From Candidatus Caribbeanibacter nitroreducens (lineage in GTDB: Bacteria > Gemmatimonadota > Gemmatimonadetes > Palauibacterales > Palauibacteraceae), in the NCBI GenBank assembly GCA_947581645.1, contig CANPVF010000029.1, positions 1-42,482 on the forward strand: DNA of 42,482 nt, in the 5' to 3' direction. Shown piece by piece: positions 18,627 to 29,871 of this stretch. Made by a program: the position numbers and the translations under genes. Each line of letters begins with the position of its first letter. Position 1 is the stretch's first letter. The notes below the pieces were generated by a model. That model was not told where the DNA came from. It made no database searches and worked only from the letters and a program-made list of their open reading frames with translations.

Positions 18627-20144
18627 GTGAAGATCGCCGCCGACCCGAACCCCCCGAACGCCAGCGTCATCGAGAACCCGAGCCGCGAGGAGCTGCGGGA
18701 GCTCGCCTCGCACCACGAGACGACCACCGAGTACGGCAGCGCGGCCTTCGTGACGGAGGCCCGCTCCCGCACGGCCGAGGCCACCCGGACCACGGTGGAC
18801 GGAGAGGTGACCGAGGAGGACCTGGCCACGGTCGACCGGGTTCACGACTACCTGGAGGACGCCGACCTCATCCGTCTCGACCGGAAGATCGGGACGGAGA
18901 ACCGCTACGGTTCGTACCACTGCCGGCTCTTCGTGACGAAGGAGTTCGCCCGGCTGGCGCTCATGTTCCACGGGAGCCTGGAGCCGGCGGAGGATCCGGA
19001 CGCCGAGCCGGACTTCGTGACCATCGACATCCCGGAGTGGCCCGGCGACCGCGCCATCCTCGTCGACACGGAGACGGGCGCCACCTACGTGCTCAACTCC
19101 GACTACTTCGGCGAGATCAAGAAGTCCTTCCTCCGGCAGACCATGTACCGGGCGAAGCAGGACGGCCACCTGGGCCTGCACGCCGGGAGCAAGGTGGTCC
19201 GTGCGCGGAGCGAGGAGACCGGGAGGCTCCGGGACCGGGGCTACCTGTTCTTCGGCCTCAGCGGCACCGGGAAGACGAGCCTCACCTGCCACGACTACGA
19301 CATGGACACCGACGAGGGCGAGCTCGTCCGGGTCCGGCAGGACGACGTCGTGGTGCTCACCGAGGACGCCTTCTGCAAGGGCACCGAGGGCGGCGGCTTC
19401 TACATCAAGACCGACGGGCTGAGCCCCGACGACCAGGAGGCCCTCTACCAGGCGGCCATCAGCTCCCGGGCGCTGATGGAGAACGTGTGGGTGGAGGACG
19501 ACGGCACGGTGGACTTCTTCAACTCGAAGCTCACCAAGAACGGTCGGGCCATCGTCCCCATCGACGAGGTCAAGAACACCGACGACACCATCGACGTCCC
19601 CGAGATCACCGACATCTTCTTCATCACCCGGAATCCGCTGGTCCCGGCCGTCGGCCGGCTGACGCCGGAGCAGGCGGCGGTGGCCTTCATGCTCGGGGAG
19701 TCGATCAAGACCTCGGCGGCGGACCCGGACGCCAAGGGCGAGCAGGTCCGCGTCGTGGGCACCAACCCCTTCATCGTCGGCCCCGCCGGCGAGGAGGGCG
19801 ACATCTTCCACGACCTCCTCACCGAGAACCCGGACCTCCACTGCTACATCCTCAACACCGGGCGCATCGGCGAGGGGGACCAGGCCGCCGACATCCGGAT
19901 CCAGGACACCGTGGCCATCCTCCGTGCCATCGCCCGGGAGGCCGTGGAGTGGACCGAGGACGAGACCGTGGGCTTCGAGGTGCCGGAGTCGGTGCCGCAC
20001 GTGGCGCCGTCGAAGTTCCGCCTCCGCGCCCACTACGAGCAGGAGGAGCTGGAGCGGAAGCTCGGCGAGCTCCGGAGCCAGCGCGGCGAGTGGCTGGACC
20101 GGTTCCCGAAGTTCCCGGAGCACCTGGCGGAGGCGCTGTACTGA
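18627..20144 (+). CDS. pckA: ATP-type phosphoenolpyruvate carboxykinase, divergent
   Basis: Converts oxaloacetate and ATP to PEP. GTG 18627 has GAGGAG nine bases upstream; 505 residues, shorter than E. coli's 540 and acidic. The P-loop is GLSGTGKT (210-217). Also present are the metal-site EIKKSF and LHAGSK stretches, RQDDVVVL, EGGGFYIKT, NGRAIVPID (the catalytic Arg) and RLTPEQAAVAFMLG. The substrate-binding TGRSPKDK motif near the N-terminus of canonical enzymes is absent; the matching stretch reads TEARSRTAEATRTT. From memory, this wording resembles the carboxykinases of haloarchaea more than E. coli PckA. The 210-base gap before it holds a small dyad (GAGGA-AA-TCCTC, 18415-18426) and no clear promoter, so it may be read through from maeB. 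Confidence 0.88.
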   Translation: MKIAADPNPPNASVIENPSREELRELASHHETTTEYGSAAFVTEARSRTAEATRTTVDGEVTEEDLATVDRVHDYLEDADLIRLDRKIGTENRYGSYHCRLFVTKEFARLALMFHGSLEPAEDPDAEPDFVTIDIPEWPGDRAILVDTETGATYVLNSDYFGEIKKSFLRQTMYRAKQDGHLGLHAGSKVVRARSEETGRLRDRGYLFFGLSGTGKTSLTCHDYDMDTDEGELVRVRQDDVVVLTEDAFCKGTEGGGFYIKTDGLSPDDQEALYQAAISSRALMENVWVEDDGTVDFFNSKLTKNGRAIVPIDEVKNTDDTIDVPEITDIFFITRNPLVPAVGRLTPEQAAVAFMLGESIKTSAADPDAKGEQVRVVGTNPFIVGPAGEEGDIFHDLLTENPDLHCYILNTGRIGEGDQAADIRIQDTVAILRAIAREAVEWTEDETVGFEVPESVPHVAPSKFRLRAHYEQEELERKLGELRSQRGEWLDRFPKFPEHLAEALY

Positions 20145-21537: not shown

Positions 21538-22287
21538 CTACCCGGAGAGTCGCACCAGCACCACGGTGATGTTGTCCCCGCCGCCGGCCCGGTTCGCGGC
21601 GCTGACCAGGCGGTCAGCGAGGTCCTGCGGGCCGCCGTCCGTCCCCGCCCCGGCGTGCTCTCCGAGCAGCGACTCCAGCTCGGCGTGCGGGAGCATGTCG
21701 CTGAGCCCGTCGGAGCAGAGCAGGAAGAGGTCGCCGGCCCCGGCCCGGCCCTCTTCCACGTCGACCTCCACGTCCCGGGACGTGCCCAGGGCGCGCTCCA
21801 GGACGCTGGACATCGGGTGCCGGCGCGCCTCCTCCCTGGTGAGCTCCCCGGCGGCGACCCGCTTCCCGACCCAGGAGTGGTCGGTGGTGAGCTGTCTGAG
21901 CTCGCCGTCGCGATAGAGGTAGGCCCGGCTGTCGCCCACGTGCCCGATGCGCCAGCGCCCGTCCGCCTCCAGCGCCAGGGCCGTCAGCGTGGTGCCCATC
22001 CCGGAGCGCCCGGGGTTCTCGTCCGCGTCCCGGAGGATGGACCGGTTGGCGTCCCGGACGGCCTCCGCCATCCGCCCGGCGGAGGGGAGCGAGGGGTCGC
22101 CGGCGAGGCGATCCTCGAGCGTCTCCACGGCCAGCCGGGAGGCCACCTCGCCGGCGGCGTGTCCTCCCATCCCGTCCGCCACGGCGAAGAGGCCGTCCCC
22201 GGGGAGCTCGAGGACGGAGTCCTCGTTGCTGTCCCGCACGCGGCCCCGGTCGGAGACGGCTGCCGAGCTCCAGCTCCGGTCGTCCAT
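21538..22287 (-). CDS. PP2C-family Ser/Thr protein phosphatase (Stp1/PrpC type)
   Basis: A compact 249-residue phosphatase with no membrane segment. ATG 22287 puts the family N-terminus (SDRGRVRDSNEDS) at residue 12; the open frame further upstream overlaps the divergent gene and is rejected. Conserved motifs: DSNED (metal), FAVADGMGGHAAGE with D38, GMGTTL, HVGDSRAYLYRDG, TTDHSWV, LCSDGLSD and GGGDNITVVLV. These cover the metal-binding Asp residues for the two-Mn centre. Such phosphatases usually oppose Hanks-type kinases, but no kinase lies in the window. Confidence 0.93.
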   Translation of the reverse strand: MDDRSWSSAAVSDRGRVRDSNEDSVLELPGDGLFAVADGMGGHAAGEVASRLAVETLEDRLAGDPSLPSAGRMAEAVRDANRSILRDADENPGRSGMGTTLTALALEADGRWRIGHVGDSRAYLYRDGELRQLTTDHSWVGKRVAAGELTREEARRHPMSSVLERALGTSRDVEVDVEEGRAGAGDLFLLCSDGLSDMLPHAELESLLGEHAGAGTDGGPQDLADRLVSAANRAGGGDNITVVLVRLSG

Positions 22288-22374
22288 GCTCGGGGGGTGG
22301 GGGTCGGAGGAACGATCGACGGGCCTGCCGGGTTCACTTTGTCGAGCAGAGACCGGGCCACCCGGGCGGGTGTA

Positions 22375-22386
22375 TGCAGGCCTGCA
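22375..22386. repeat. 12-bp perfect palindrome TGCAGGCCTGCA
   Basis: It lies in the 160-base divergent gap between the PP2C and radical SAM genes, about 60 bases before ATG 22448. It could be an operator for either gene; no matching promoter boxes were found. Confidence 0.3.
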
Positions 22387-22447
22387 CGAGGCCGGCACGA
22401 CCGGTCTCCGCGCCCTGGAATCCAGCACCCTCAGCGTCCGGAGCAGG

Positions 22448-23389
22448 ATGGCTTCTGGTGGTCTTCCCGTCGTGGACGAGCAGGACGCCCGCCCGGAGGG
22501 GGCGGGCGCACCGGAGGTGGAGCTCGAGCACCTGGACACCCTCTGGTTCCAGGTCACCGGCACGATCTGCAACCTGGAGTGCTCGCACTGCTTCATCTCC
22601 TGCTCGCCGGACAACCACACCCTGGAGTTCCTGGACCTGGAGACGGTCCTGGACTGGGTGGAGCGCTCGGGCGAGTGGGGCGTGAAGGAGTTCTACGTCA
22701 CCGGCGGCGAGCCCTTCATGCACCGGGACCTGGCGGCCATGCTCGAGGCCATGCTCCAGCGCGGCCCGGCCTCGGTGCTCACCAACGGCACGCTGATGCG
22801 GGAGAAGACCCTCCGCCGCCTGGCCACGGCCCACGAGGAGTCGCGGTACTCGCTCGAGATCCGGGTGAGCATCGACGGCCCGAACCCCGAGATGAACGAT
22901 CCGATCCGCGGGGAGGGCACCTTCGAGCGGGCCATGGAGGGCGTCCGCAAGCTGCTGGACCACGGCTTCCTCCCCATCGTCACCGCCACCCAGGTCTGGG
23001 ACCAGGAGGAGGACGAGGCCGTGCGCCGGGAGTTCATGGAGAACCTCCGGGCGCAGGGCTACGAGAACCCCCGCCTCAAGATCCTCCCCTCCATCAAGAC
23101 CGGCCGTGAGGCCGCCCGGAGCCGTGGCTACGGAGAGGGCGAGCGGGTGACGGCGGCCATGATGGAGGGCTACGAGGAGGAGCAGCTCATCTGCTCCAGC
23201 GCGCGGATCGTCACCAGCGAGGGCGTCCACGTGTGTCCGATCCTGGTGGACGAGCCCGATTCGCTCATGGGACAGACCATGGAGGAGGCCGACGAGCCCT
23301 TCGAGCTGAAGCACCAGGCCTGCTACACCTGCTGGCTGCACGGCGCCATCTGCTCCAACTACGGCGGCATCGGCGAGGAGGTGACCTGA
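22448..23389 (+). CDS. Radical SAM protein with SPASM-like C-terminal cysteines
   Basis: A 313-residue radical SAM enzyme. ATG 22448 has a weak GGAG four bases upstream; the longer frame overlaps the PP2C gene on the other strand. The cluster motif C41-NLE-C45-SH-C48 follows WFQVTGTI, with a second cysteine pair-like stretch CFISCSPDNHT; the SAM-binding YVTGGEPF is at 83-90 and IRVSIDGPN follows. The C-terminal region has C249, C263, C292, C295 and C302, spaced like a SPASM/twitch auxiliary-cluster domain. SPASM proteins often modify peptides or other macromolecules, but no precursor peptide is seen. The downstream metallophosphoesterase starts after one base, so the two are translationally coupled and should act together. 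Function unknown. Confidence 0.85.
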   Translation: MASGGLPVVDEQDARPEGAGAPEVELEHLDTLWFQVTGTICNLECSHCFISCSPDNHTLEFLDLETVLDWVERSGEWGVKEFYVTGGEPFMHRDLAAMLEAMLQRGPASVLTNGTLMREKTLRRLATAHEESRYSLEIRVSIDGPNPEMNDPIRGEGTFERAMEGVRKLLDHGFLPIVTATQVWDQEEDEAVRREFMENLRAQGYENPRLKILPSIKTGREAARSRGYGEGERVTAAMMEGYEEEQLICSSARIVTSEGVHVCPILVDEPDSLMGQTMEEADEPFELKHQACYTCWLHGAICSNYGGIGEEVT

Positions 23390-23390
23390 G

Positions 23391-24374
23391 GTGACGCCCG
23401 GCGAAGAGGGGGGAGGCGCGGGAGCCGTGGCCGCGACGGATCGGCCGCAGGCCGCGGAGGAGCGGGACCCGGAGGTCCGCGCCACCGACGCCCGCCGGAT
23501 CGCCGTCTTCGGCGGCGTCTACAGCAACTGGAGGGCGCTGGAGGCCGTGGTGGAGGACGCCCGGCGCCGGGGCGCCGACGAGCTGTACTGCCTGGGCGAC
23601 CTGGGGGCGTTCGGTCCCAACCCGGACAGGATCCCGCCCCGTCTGATCGACGCCGACGTGAGGACCATCCGGGGCAACTACGACGACTCCATCAGCCGCG
23701 GTCTGGACGACTGTCAGTGCGGCTACACCGATCCGCGCGACAACCACTTCGCCCGCCTCTCCTACCGCTACACCTTCCGGAACACCTCGGAGCGGTGGCG
23801 GGAATGGATGGGGACGCTGCCCGAGCAGCGCCGGATCGAGATGGCCGGCCGCGAGGTGCTCATGTGCCACGGGAGCCCGCGGCGGATGAACGAGTTCCTG
23901 TGGGAGTCCACGAGCTCCACGCAGTTCCTGGACTGGATGGCGCGCGAGCACGGCGCCGACGTGGTGCTGTGCACGCACACGGGCATCCACTGGAAGCGCC
24001 GGCTCTCGGGCGGCGGCTGGTTCGCCAACGTCGGGTGTATCGGCCGGCCGCCCAACGACGGGCGCACGGACGTGTGGTACACCCTCCTGTCGACGGAAGG
24101 CGACGGGGGGGAGGAGCCGACGTCCGCATCGAGCCCCGGGGAGAGGGAGGCGCCGGCCGGCGGGAACGGCGGCCGCGATCGGTCGACGGGGGACGGTGGC
24201 GATGCCGCGCTGGAGGTGGAGTTCGTGCCCGTCTCCTACGACCACGAGGCCCTGGCCGAGGAGATGCGCCGGGAGGAGCTCCCGGAGGAGTTCGTCGAGA
24301 CGATCCTCACGGGCTGGTGGACCACCTGCCTTGAGGTGCTCCCGGCCAAGGAGCGGCGCCGGGGCCGTCACTAG
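23391..24374 (+). CDS. Metallophosphoesterase-fold protein lacking one metal site
   Basis: A 327-residue protein from GTG 23391, one base after the radical SAM stop. The fold is that of YfcE-like calcineurin phosphoesterases: motif 1 FGGVYSNWRAL, motif 2 LGDLGAFGPNP (D70), motif 3 RGNYDD (N96), motif 4 CHGSP (H160), motif 5 CTHTGIH (H196), then NVGCIGRP. Motif 1 normally reads (G/S)DxH; here the positions are G42 and Y44. Motif 3's catalytic His is Y97, and the second His of GHTH is G198. So the ligands of metal 2 remain and the private ligands of metal 1 are gone. Residues of about 235-275 are a Gly/Glu-rich linker, and the tail ends in GWWTTCLEVLPAKER, beyond the usual family length. Role unknown; tied to the radical SAM partner. 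Confidence 0.8.
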   Translation: MTPGEEGGGAGAVAATDRPQAAEERDPEVRATDARRIAVFGGVYSNWRALEAVVEDARRRGADELYCLGDLGAFGPNPDRIPPRLIDADVRTIRGNYDDSISRGLDDCQCGYTDPRDNHFARLSYRYTFRNTSERWREWMGTLPEQRRIEMAGREVLMCHGSPRRMNEFLWESTSSTQFLDWMAREHGADVVLCTHTGIHWKRRLSGGGWFANVGCIGRPPNDGRTDVWYTLLSTEGDGGEEPTSASSPGEREAPAGGNGGRDRSTGDGGDAALEVEFVPVSYDHEALAEEMRREELPEEFVETILTGWWTTCLEVLPAKERRRGRH

Positions 24375-24426
24375 GGAGTCGCCCCCGCCGGCTCGCCTTC
24401 CGGTCGGGACGGGCCGGGACGACTCG

Positions 24427-24455
24427 TTGACGGCCCCCGACCCCCGGCCTAGCTT
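24427..24455 (+). promoter_or_regulatory. Sigma70-type promoter of the sigma factor gene
   Basis: TTGACG (24427-24432), 17-base spacer, TAGCTT (24450-24455). The -10 is identical to that of the exbB-like gene. Transcription would start near 24462, leaving a 5' leader of about 65 bases. Confidence 0.7.
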
Positions 24456-24527
24456 GGTCGCCCCGGTGCCGCGAACCGGGCGGCCGCGGCGCCACGAATC
24501 TCGGCCCGACAGCACGTCAACCCTGAC

Positions 24528-25397
24528 ATGTCTTCCGACACCGCCGGCTCCCGCGCCTCCTCCGGCACCATCGGCGCCGACGTGCTCGACCTGTACCTGG
24601 ACGACGTCAGCCGCCACGACCTCCTCGATCCCGAGGAGGAGGAGCGAATCGCCCGCCGGGCCCGGGCCGGCGACGAGCAGGCCCTCGAGCGCCTGGTCCG
24701 CGCCAACCTGCGCTTCGTGATCTCGGTCGCCAAGAAATACAAGAACCGGGGCGTCTCCTTCGAGGACCTCATCCAGGAGGGGAACGTCGGCCTGGTGAAG
24801 GCGGCGAAGAAGTTCGATCCGGACCAGGGCGTGAAGTTCATCAGCTACGCCGTGTGGTGGATCCGGCAGTCGATACTCTCGGCCCTGGCCCGCCACAGCC
24901 GCTCGGTCCGCCTCCCGCTGAACCGCGCCACCGAGATGTCCCGGATGCTCCGCACCCGTGGCGAGCTCCGGCAGGAGCTGGGGCGGGATCCGAAGCCGGA
25001 GGAGATCGCCGACGAGGCGGACCTGGACGTCGACACGGTGGAGATGCTGCAGCGGCTGAACACGGCCGAGGTCCGCCTGGACGCCCCGGTGGGGGAGGAG
25101 GACGACAGCCACCTGATCGAGCGCTTCTTCGTGGAGGGACCCTCCGTGGAGGACGACCTGGAGGAGAAGCTGCTCCAGGAGCACGTGATCCGGGCCCTCT
25201 CCACGATCCGGTCGCGGGACGCCCGCGTGATCCGGCTCTACTACGGGCTGCAGGGATCGGAGGAGCACACCCTGGAGGAGATCGGGGAGATCCTGGGCGT
25301 CACCCGAGAGCGGGTGCGGCAACTGCGCGATCGCGGCCTGGAGGAGATCCGCTCCGGCGAGCTGGGGCGGATCCTGGCCAGCTACGCCGCGGCCTGA
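24528..25397 (+). CDS. RpoD/SigA-family RNA polymerase sigma factor without region 1.1
   Basis: A 289-residue sigma factor. Region 1.2 starts at VLDLYLDDVSRHDLL; region 2 shows NLRFVISVAKKYKNRG, the DLIQEGNVGLVKAAKKFD stretch and the -10 recognising FISYAVWWIRQSI; region 3 follows RLPLN; region 4 has the helix-turn-helix LEEIGEILGVTRERVRQ. Region 1.1 and the non-conserved insertion are missing, as in the primary sigma of Bacteroidota, so this may be the primary sigma or a group 2 relative. No SD-like purine run precedes ATG 24528 (the bases read CAACCCTGAC), which is unusual beside most genes here. It has its own promoter. Confidence 0.93.
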   Translation: MSSDTAGSRASSGTIGADVLDLYLDDVSRHDLLDPEEEERIARRARAGDEQALERLVRANLRFVISVAKKYKNRGVSFEDLIQEGNVGLVKAAKKFDPDQGVKFISYAVWWIRQSILSALARHSRSVRLPLNRATEMSRMLRTRGELRQELGRDPKPEEIADEADLDVDTVEMLQRLNTAEVRLDAPVGEEDDSHLIERFFVEGPSVEDDLEEKLLQEHVIRALSTIRSRDARVIRLYYGLQGSEEHTLEEIGEILGVTRERVRQLRDRGLEEIRSGELGRILASYAAA

Positions 25398-26619: not shown

Positions 26620-27579
26620 TTGGCGGATCTCGGCTTCTATCATCACGACGCGTGCTCCGGCCACGACACGGGCTGGCGGCATCCCGAGCATCAGGGACGC
26701 CTGCGGGGGCTGATGAAGGCGCTGGAGGGCGCGATGCTGGACCTCCAGGGACACTTCACGCCCGTGGAGGGACGCCCGGCCCCGCGCCAGCTGCTGGAGC
26801 GGGTGCACGACGCCGCCCACCTGGACGCCGTCCGGGATGCGGCGGAGCGGGCGGAGGAGGCCGGCTCCCCGGTGAACCTGGACCCGGACACGGTCGTCAG
26901 CGGAGGGTCGTGGGACGCGGCCCGGGCCGCCGCGGGGTGCGCCGTCGACGCCGTGGAGGCGGTGGCCGGGGGGGCGCACGGGACGGCCTTCTGCGGCGTC
27001 CGTCCTCCCGGCCACCACGCCACGCCGGACCGGGCCATGGGGTTCTGTCTGCTCAACCACGTGGCCGTGGCGGCGCGGCACGCGGTGGAGGAGGGGCTGG
27101 CCGAGCGGGTGCTGGTCGCGGACTGGGACGTCCACCACGGGAACGGCACGCAGGAGATCTTCTGGCGCGATCCGGCGGTCTTCTACTTCTCCCTCCATCA
27201 GAGCCCCTTCTATCCCGGCACCGGCGCCGAGGACGAGCGGGGCGAGGGGCCGGGCGAGGGCACGACGCTGAATCGCCCCATGTCCGCCGGGCTGGAGCCG
27301 GAGCGGTACGTGGAGGTCTTCGCCGAGGGCCTGGGTCGCATCGCGGAGCTGGGCTTCGAGCCGGAGCTGGTGCTGGTGTCGGCCGGGTTCGACGGGTGTG
27401 CGGACGACCCCCTCGGTGGGTTCACGCTGGAGGAGGAGCACTACCGGGAGATGACGCGGGCGGTGATGGAGATGGCGGACGGAGCCGTGGTGTCGGTGAT
27501 GGAGGGCGGATACGACCCGGACGCGCTGGGCCGCTGCGCGGTGGCCCACATGAAGGAGCTGGCCGGGTCCCGCCCCTGA
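26620..27579 (+). CDS. Histone-deacetylase-family amidohydrolase
   Basis: A 319-residue Zn-dependent deacetylase of the arginase/deacetylase fold, from TTG 26620 with a purine-rich leader (GAGAGAGGAAGGGG). Catalytic residues are all present: H132-H133 in RPPGHHATP, metal ligands D170 and H172 in DWDVHHGNG, D258 in SAGFDG, and the transition-state Tyr Y298 in EGGYDP. Bacterial members deacetylate acetylpolyamines, small acetylamides or acetyl-lysine proteins; the sequence does not tell which. It is followed after 43 bases by the M24 peptidase, so a shared role in breaking down acetylated peptides or amino compounds is possible. Confidence 0.92.
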   Translation: MADLGFYHHDACSGHDTGWRHPEHQGRLRGLMKALEGAMLDLQGHFTPVEGRPAPRQLLERVHDAAHLDAVRDAAERAEEAGSPVNLDPDTVVSGGSWDAARAAAGCAVDAVEAVAGGAHGTAFCGVRPPGHHATPDRAMGFCLLNHVAVAARHAVEEGLAERVLVADWDVHHGNGTQEIFWRDPAVFYFSLHQSPFYPGTGAEDERGEGPGEGTTLNRPMSAGLEPERYVEVFAEGLGRIAELGFEPELVLVSAGFDGCADDPLGGFTLEEEHYREMTRAVMEMADGAVVSVMEGGYDPDALGRCAVAHMKELAGSRP

Positions 27580-28852: not shown

Positions 28853-29871
28853 GGATCGAGTGGGAGAGAATCCGGGCCGAGACGGCCGATCCGTTCACCA
28901 CGAGCCGCTCCACGAACACGGAGATCGAGCGTGTGTGGGTCCGGATCGTACACGGCGACGTCGAGGGATGGGGGGAGGCGGATCCCTCCCGCTACTACGG
29001 GGAGTCGGCCGGAACCGTGGAGGCGGCCCTGGCGGAGATGCGTCCCGCCGTGGAGGAGGCCGACGGCCCGGAGCCGATGCAGGCTCTCGAGCGGGAGCTG
29101 GACCGGAGGATCGGGGCGAACCGGGCGGCGAAGGCCGCCGTGGTCGCCGCCCTGCTGGACCTCCGGGGCAAGAGCCTCGGTGAGCCCCTGTGGCGCCTCT
29201 GGGGGCTCGATCCGGAGGAGGCGCCCCTCAGCTCCTTCACGGTGGGTATGGACGACCCGGAGGCCGTGGCCGAGAAGATCGACCGGGCCCCGGACTACCC
29301 CGTCCTCAAGGTGAAGCTGGGGGGCGACCGGGACGAGGAGATCCTGGCCGCCGTCCGCCACGCCGCCCCGGATCGCCGGATCCGGGTCGACGCCAACGCG
29401 GCCTGGTCGGCGAAGGAGGCGCTGTGGAAGATCCGCACCCTGGCGGACCACGGCGTGGAGTTCGTGGAACAGCCGCTGCCGCCGGAGGATCGCGAGGGGC
29501 TGCGGCTGGTCCGCGAGCGGTCGCCGCTCCCGGTGATCCTGGACGAGTCCTGCCGGACCGCCGCGGACGTTCCGGAGCTGGTGGGCCTGGCGGACGGGGT
29601 GAACATCAAGCTGGCGAAGTGCGGCGGACCCCTGGAGGCGCTCCGGGCCATCCACGCCGCCCGCGCCTGCGGCCTGCAGGTCATGATGGGGTGCATGCTG
29701 GAGACCAGCCTGGGCATCGCTCCGGCAGCGCACCTGGCGCCGCTCCTGGACCACGCCGACCTGGACGGGGCGGCCCTCCTGGGCGACGACCCCTTCCGCG
29801 GGCCCGGCATCGGCGACGACGGCCGGATCCGCGTCTCCGAGGAGCCGGGGCTGGGGATCGAGCGGGCCTGA
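28849..29871 (+). CDS. Dipeptide epimerase (enolase superfamily, L-Ala-D/L-Glu epimerase type)
   Basis: A 340-residue enolase-superfamily enzyme of the muconate-lactonizing subgroup. GTG 28849 overlaps the previous stop. Signatures: FTVGMDDPE, the catalytic KVK (K154/K156), metal ligands D181 (VDANAAW), E207 (EQPLPPED) and D232 (LDESCR), and the second catalytic Lys in NIKLAKCGG (K257). This order is that of L-Ala-D/L-Glu epimerases (YcjG/YkfB) and their relatives that racemise other dipeptides. Together with the M24 peptidase it suggests use of murein peptides or of unusual dipeptides; true specificity lies in loops I cannot judge. The 62-base gap to priA holds no hairpin with a T-run. Confidence 0.9.
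   Translation: MRIEWERIRAETADPFTTSRSTNTEIERVWVRIVHGDVEGWGEADPSRYYGESAGTVEAALAEMRPAVEEADGPEPMQALERELDRRIGANRAAKAAVVAALLDLRGKSLGEPLWRLWGLDPEEAPLSSFTVGMDDPEAVAEKIDRAPDYPVLKVKLGGDRDEEILAAVRHAAPDRRIRVDANAAWSAKEALWKIRTLADHGVEFVEQPLPPEDREGLRLVRERSPLPVILDESCRTAADVPELVGLADGVNIKLAKCGGPLEALRAIHAARACGLQVMMGCMLETSLGIAPAAHLAPLLDHADLDGAALLGDDPFRGPGIGDDGRIRVSEEPGLGIERA

Follow-up and report, generated by a model that had tools for sequence, protein, structure and literature searches.

The analysed DNA (the window, 42,482 nucleotides) carries a gene for a radical SAM protein (rSAM) followed on the same strand by a gene for a variant metallophosphoesterase (MPE), separated from it by one base (23390), as the initial annotation had stated (Table 1). 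The ribosome-binding-like stretch GAGGAGGTGA lies at 23375-23384, just 5' of the rSAM stop codon. The placement of the pair between a divergent phosphatase gene and a sigma factor gene was also confirmed, as the flanks are a PP2C phosphatase of the Stp1 family (235 bits against a cut-off of 230) and, downstream, a sigma-70 factor. The additional claim that the sigma gene has its own promoter found no support, as a scan of 22200-24700 for the sigma-70-type consensus revealed no promoter. The same sigma-70 factor adjoins the pair in loci L033, L038 and L042, and lies about 3 kb from it, behind ABC genes, in L065 and L111. This synteny is kept within the lineage, probably with no functional tie. 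Elsewhere in the window, an ATP-type PEP carboxykinase (18627-20144), a histone-deacetylase-family protein (26620-27579) and an enolase-superfamily protein (28933-29871) are ordinary by family match.

Table 1. Coordinates of the rSAM-MPE pair and its features in the window.
Feature	Position	Strand	Remarks
rSAM (radical SAM) gene	22448..23389	+	ATG at 22448, stop at 23387-23389, 313 aa
MPE (variant metallophosphoesterase) gene	23391..24374	+	GTG at 23391, stop ends at 24374, 327 aa
C108-Q-C110 codons of MPE (tgtcagtgc)	23712..23720	+	invariant in pair MPEs and ars-operon MPEs; missing from PDB relatives 3qfm, 3rqz and 1nnw
rSAM-MPE coupling region	23375..23390	+	GAGGAGGTGA, ribosome-binding-like, and a single base before the MPE GTG; read directly from the sequence

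The rSAM protein belongs to the radical SAM superfamily (Pfam Radical_SAM PF04055, 1.9e-23). It contains the cluster motif CxxxCxxC (C41-x3-C45-x2-C48), a GGE motif in the core and five C-terminal cysteines (C249, C263, C292, C295 and C302). All eight cysteines had been recognized in the initial annotation, and an alignment of 50 homologues revealed that each of them is invariant. The C-terminal five-cysteine region appears SPASM/Twitch-like, but with no match to a SPASM domain in Pfam. The AlphaFold2 model has a pLDDT of 91, and its best PDB folds are SkfB, followed by BlsE. Neither the rSAM nor the MPE reached any family cut-off in the NCBIfam search. Compared with ArsS, the rSAM is not a family member (60 bits for TIGR04167 against a cut-off of 300) and possesses the five-cysteine region instead of the C-terminal domain DUF3641, which is present in the true ArsS of L171 and was not found in the rSAM by Pfam. 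No ArsL-type model appeared among the best 25 rSAM matches listed. Assignment of the rSAM to ArsS or to any other named radical SAM family was thus rejected, the curated cut-offs all being missed by wide margins.

The best-scoring named model for the rSAM was NF049973, the Rv1681 (MoeX) family, at 121 bits against a cut-off of 380. A member of this family (535 bits), related to the rSAM of the window, is encoded on a plasmid of Mycolicibacterium vanbaalenii (L139:4946-10804) beside a PhnD-like binding protein, with a TrsS-like rSAM and a methyltransferase nearby and no MPE seen beside it. The arrangement recalls the Roseomonas cluster described below (L137), and it may help to understand the role of Rv1681 in M. 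tuberculosis.

The MPE matches the calcineurin-like phosphoesterases in Pfam (PF12850, 2.3e-12), and its AlphaFold2 model (pLDDT 83) has SapH, 3rqz and 1nnw as the best PDB folds (Foldseek E ~1e-15). Alignment of 55 members revealed a remodelled metal site. The D-x-H of motif I is replaced by G42-x-Y44 and the histidine of motif VI by G198, whereas D70, N96, H160 and H196 are retained, all of these positions being invariant. We take the replaced D, H and H to be the private ligands of one metal and the four retained residues to be the ligands of the other. One metal half-site is thus lost and the other retained, which confirms the remodelled site proposed in the initial annotation. The unusual tail noticed there is likewise a conserved feature: in this GWWTTC tail, nine residues (G308, W309, W310, C313, E315, L317, P318, E321 and R322) are invariant in the 55 members. 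Among the cysteines, C67, C108, C110 and C313 are invariant in the 55 homologues, and the C108-x-C110 motif among them had been overlooked. It is found without exception in MPEs of the pair and of ars operons. The solved relatives SapH/Spr1479 (3qfm), 3rqz and 1nnw share the fold with the pair MPE; however, they have no C-x-C, and in SapH the D-x-H motif, missing from the pair MPE, is intact.

A scan of 84,980 GTDB species genomes for the MPE confirmed 286 relatives, and the best 80 of these 286 were analysed. They come from Gemmatimonadota, Planctomycetota, Acidobacteriota, Calditrichota, KSB1, Zixibacteria, Bacteroidota and Balneolota. An rSAM gene was found upstream on the same strand at 64 of these 80 loci. 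For 12 of the remaining 16 it was found elsewhere in the genome; therefore the partners belong together even when their genes are separated. The recurrence of the pair is far beyond chance, and the earlier impression that similar pairs occur in other genomes holds across at least eight phyla. In the reverse direction, 27 of the 29 rSAM homologue loci first retrieved are closely followed by an MPE gene on the same strand, often with an overlapping or very short junction; most Gemmatimonadota homologues have junctions of this kind. Among 298 Gemmatimonadota genomes, the rSAM (E<=1e-40) was detected in 60 and a close MPE in 40. The initial annotation had proposed to examine whether the tail of the phosphoesterase is found only where the rSAM is present; the outcome was positive, as all 40 of these MPE-bearing genomes have the rSAM and, across phyla, both partners are present in 76 of the best 80 loci or genomes. 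No MPE was detected in the other 20 rSAM-positive Gemmatimonadota genomes, which must either do without it or have a replacement. The dependence thus seems stronger on the side of the MPE than on that of the rSAM. Our literature search found no description of the rSAM-MPE pair, and as far as the literature searched shows, it is right to regard the pair as an undescribed two-gene system.

One link to arsenic is provided by the MPE. Two further Gemmatimonadota matches are distant (34-37% identity) and adjoin ars genes: one lies beside ACR3 and ArsR (L117), and the other ends the order ArsM, ArsN-like acetyltransferase, MPE (L118). In both, the metal site is intact and the C-x-C of the pair MPE is present. 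Plasmid-borne relatives in Paraclostridium, Adhaeribacter and Rubrobacter have ArsR, arsM, arsN2, ACR3 and ArsC as annotated neighbours. According to PMC12124457, such an MPE of an ars operon resembles Car1, the As(V) reductase of Rufibacter tibetensis, in which Cys74 and Cys76 are essential. The C-x-C in L117 and L118 corresponds exactly to residues 74 and 76, and C108 and C110 of the window MPE align there. Car1 is reported to be a binuclear metallophosphoesterase with a redox function coupled to thioredoxin, in which Cys74 attacks arsenate and Cys76 resolves the intermediate. The pair MPE is like Car1, a redox-catalysing metallophosphoesterase (Shen et al. 2024, doi 10.1111/mmi.15289), in its superfamily and in the homologous position of its C-x-C (74/76), and relatives with the same C-x-C reside in ars operons. 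However, its two-metal site is incomplete, with D, H and H lost as ligands of one metal, it has gained the conserved GWWTTC tail, and it is coupled to an rSAM gene rather than located in a classical ars operon. The window MPE does not lie in an ars operon, whereas in other lineages ArsM lies within the operon of the pair. The tree groups the pair MPEs with the Roseomonas MPE (support 97/96) but does not resolve the ars-operon MPEs as their sister. By its C-x-C, the pair MPE is related to the Car1-like arsenate-reducing metallophosphoesterases, and we propose that it may act as a thiol-based arsenical reductase or carrier.

Comparison of the gene context in other lineages revealed further connections. 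In KSB1 and Calditrichota, ArsM is found inside the pair operon (L047, L061, L067, L089 and L104), lying between the rSAM and the MPE in L061, L067 and L089 and after the MPE in L104; a PiT-type permease accompanies the pair and ArsM in L047 and L104. The Gemmatimonadota genome G116 (L130) has the order ArsM-rSAM-MPE, and the operon ArsMs occur in several arrangements and belong to two ArsM subtypes. TIGR04282 and/or TIGR04283, named by NCBI as arsenosugar biosynthesis glycosyltransferases through genomic association, accompany the pair in L047, L104, L106, L102 and L137. Their role in arsenosugars is putative. In the Gemmatimonadota loci L189 and L201, TIGR04283 and a MerA-like FAD oxidoreductase are encoded close to the pair or its rSAM; L189 has a TIGR04282-like gene as well. 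The plasmid p546-1 of Roseomonas haemaphysalidis, a cultured bearer, carries a cluster (L137:4986-11946) of TIGR04282, DUF547, TrsS-like rSAM, rSAM, PhnD, PhnE, ABC ATPase and MPE; it includes a 35%-identical rSAM and an MPE in which the C-x-C occurs together with the degenerate motif I. Upstream of the pair in Planctomycetota are a ThiO-like oxidase and a member of an FAD/NAD oxidoreductase family of ~420 aa (L066:4632-6995, similarly in L071, L090, L091, L093 and L102). The FAD protein is found upstream at 23 of the 80 loci in several phyla and reaches no NCBIfam cut-off.

A membrane protein gene lies upstream of the pair in three Bacteroidota/Balneolota loci. Members of this family beside the rSAM are located at L069:1155-2552, L087:5722-7095, L106:153-1529 and L138:9277-10638. 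The Bacteroidota protein of L069 (1155-2549) has no Pfam match, and the homologue in Marinobacter, which adjoins a degraded rSAM, carries the annotation of a sodium:solute symporter; the family is possibly a dedicated transporter. The degraded gene, on pHP-187 of Marinobacter adhaerens HP15 (L138:8001-8841), is an unannotated rSAM homologue in two pieces by the symporter gene and is apparently decayed. The initial annotation had found no transporter adjacent to the pair, which is correct for the window but not elsewhere, where PiT-, PhnD/E- and symporter-like genes are found in the operon. In the window lineage no arsenic gene adjoins the pair, and TIGR04283 is mostly unlinked to it, having mostly thioredoxin, VOC and rRNA methyltransferase-like genes as neighbours. 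A conserved arsenic neighbourhood in this lineage was rejected. ArsS of pair-negative genomes keeps similar company, in the orders TIGR04282-TIGR04283-ArsS (L203) and ArsM-ArsS-AhpD-TIGR04283 (L171).

The phyletic pattern in Gemmatimonadota connects the rSAM with TIGR04283, which was tested in all 60 rSAM-positive genomes, all 25 ArsS-positive genomes and 76 sampled genomes with neither. It was present in 58 of the 60 rSAM-positive and 21 of the 25 ArsS-positive genomes, against 7 of the 76 with neither (Fisher p ~7e-28 and ~4e-12, respectively, both values ignoring shared ancestry). ArsS was found in 25 of the 298 genomes and overlapped with the rSAM in 0, against 5.0 expected (hypergeometric p 0.003, which likewise takes no account of shared ancestry). 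The same pattern is seen inside families: in family f6, G118 and G136, the pair-less genus-mates of pair-positive genomes, are also without TIGR04283. The window's own genome has the pair, an ArsM match (3.2e-101) and TIGR04283 (195 bits against a cut-off of 182), and ArsS was not found in it. In other phyla, ArsS is present in 3 of 44 genomes with the pair or the MPE, and ArsM occurs with the pair in 31 of 36 genomes, mostly as sub-cut-off matches. The culturable, pair-bearing Adhaeretor mobilis likewise has ArsS. No ArsM match was found in any of the 12 pair-positive genomes of the Palauibacter-type genus; therefore methylation is done otherwise there or the product is unmethylated. Arsinothricin-type ArsM is present in only 4 of the 298 Gemmatimonadota genomes, two of them pair-negative. 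In view of these two results, a strict dependence of the pair on ArsM was rejected.

With moderate confidence, we place the pair in organoarsenical metabolism. To our knowledge, arsenosugar biosynthesis is known enzymatically through ArsM and ArsS only. ArsS requires a trivalent arsenical and a carbon radical. A C-x-C protein of the Car1 kind would be a good candidate for reducing or presenting the arsenical, and an rSAM enzyme for supplying the carbon. The rSAM and ArsS have in common the radical SAM core and the genomic company of TIGR04283, TIGR04282 and, in several lineages, ArsM, and their phyletic patterns in Gemmatimonadota are complementary. Most simply, the pair would take the part in an arsenosugar-type pathway that ArsS has elsewhere, the rSAM being proposed as the enzyme forming the C-As bond. 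On balance, the pair is probably the core of a second, ArsS-independent route to arsenosugar-type organoarsenicals. The initial annotation had assigned the pair to no pathway; the C-x-C that its MPE shares with Car1, together with the gene context and the phyletic pattern, points instead to arsenosugar-type metabolism.

From the observed pair, its conservation, motifs, linkage and phyletic pattern, we infer every chemical step of the following route. Inorganic arsenic, usually methylated by ArsM, would reach the MPE, in which the second metal that an ordinary phosphatase requires would be missing. Using the redox-capable C108-x-C110, perhaps with C313, and the single remaining metal, the MPE would reduce the arsenical or present it in the trivalent state. 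The rSAM would then join a SAM-derived carbon radical to the trivalent arsenic, by analogy a 5'-deoxyadenosyl radical as for ArsS, which adenosylates arsenic by a radical SAM reaction (PMC12159101). The TIGR04282/TIGR04283 enzymes might complete an arsenosugar-like product, with FAD oxidoreductases and transporters taking part in some lineages. In its fullest form, this would be a non-orthologous, phylum-spanning arsenosugar/arsenolipid pathway of heterotrophic bacteria, in which an MPE turned thiol redox carrier, with only half a metal site, holds and reduces the arsenical on which a new rSAM family makes the C-As bond; we put this forward only tentatively, as somewhat short of an even chance.

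The pair might also act on arsenic without substituting for ArsS. The MPE would then be an arsenate or methylarsenate reductase or a sink for As(III), and the rSAM would make a different C-As bond, for example by 3-amino-3-carboxypropyl transfer as ArsL does in arsinothricin biosynthesis, or would remove an organic group. The ArsM of the KSB1/Calditrichota operons indeed matches best the arsinothricin-type ArsM model NF040538 (376 bits against a cut-off of 500), neither the C-x-C of the MPE nor its relation to ars-operon MPEs depends on a sugar step, and the Palauibacter-type genomes are without ArsM. Arsinothricin biosynthesis (ArsQML) further resembles the proposed system in combining a radical SAM enzyme with ArsM to make a C-As bond, but the matches listed for the rSAM include no ArsL-type model among the best 25, and we know of no report of a pair-type MPE in arsinothricin clusters. 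Moreover, the rSAM is almost completely coupled to the arsenosugar-named TIGR04283 and mutually exclusive with ArsS in Gemmatimonadota, and the same ArsM subtype stands beside ArsS and TIGR04283 in the pair-negative L171. We consider such a role rather unlikely.

Unlikely as well is a pathway free of arsenic, either a glycosyltransfer or a nucleoside pathway (e.g. of another metalloid such as selenium, or of an ordinary sugar nucleoside), with a BlsE-like rSAM acting on a sugar nucleotide and the arsenic links incidental. The nucleoside decarboxylase BlsE ranks second among the folds matching the rSAM, TIGR04283 is named through association only, the pair is accompanied in Planctomycetota by a ThiO-like oxidase and an FAD oxidoreductase, and the PhnD-type binding protein of Roseomonas has some selenate-type similarity. 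However, the C-x-C is identical to the Car1-type motif, the linkage to ArsM is repeated in three phyla, and the lost metal half-site argues against ordinary phosphoester hydrolysis. That the rSAM is a RiPP peptide maturase with the MPE as an accessory is suggested by its five-cysteine C-terminal region and by its best fold, SkfB, a RiPP maturase, but is highly improbable, as the DNA within 1.3 kb of the pair revealed no conserved small ORF, in line with the missing precursor peptide noted in the initial annotation; the recurring small frames are the N terminus of the rSAM itself or frames in or opposite larger genes, and no leader-peptide-binding or peptidase partner recurs. Equally improbable is an ordinary or Ap4A hydrolase-like phosphatase that removes phosphate from the rSAM product: the fold and sequence neighbours of the MPE do include SapH, an Ap4A hydrolase, but in the 55 members invariant non-ligands stand in place of all three private ligands of one metal while the C-x-C is invariant, and with the metal half-site lost an ordinary phosphoesterase was rejected.

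The predictions of the proposed arsenosugar-type pathway are concrete and can be checked by arsenic speciation in cultures. If the proposal is true, there would be a second radical SAM route to the arsenosugar-type C-As bond, and the MPE would represent a further evolutionary step from a hydrolase fold to a thiol redox or carrier protein. Organoarsenical synthesis would then reach Gemmatimonadota, including Palauibacter, as well as Planctomycetota and other soil and marine groups that are mostly without ArsS.
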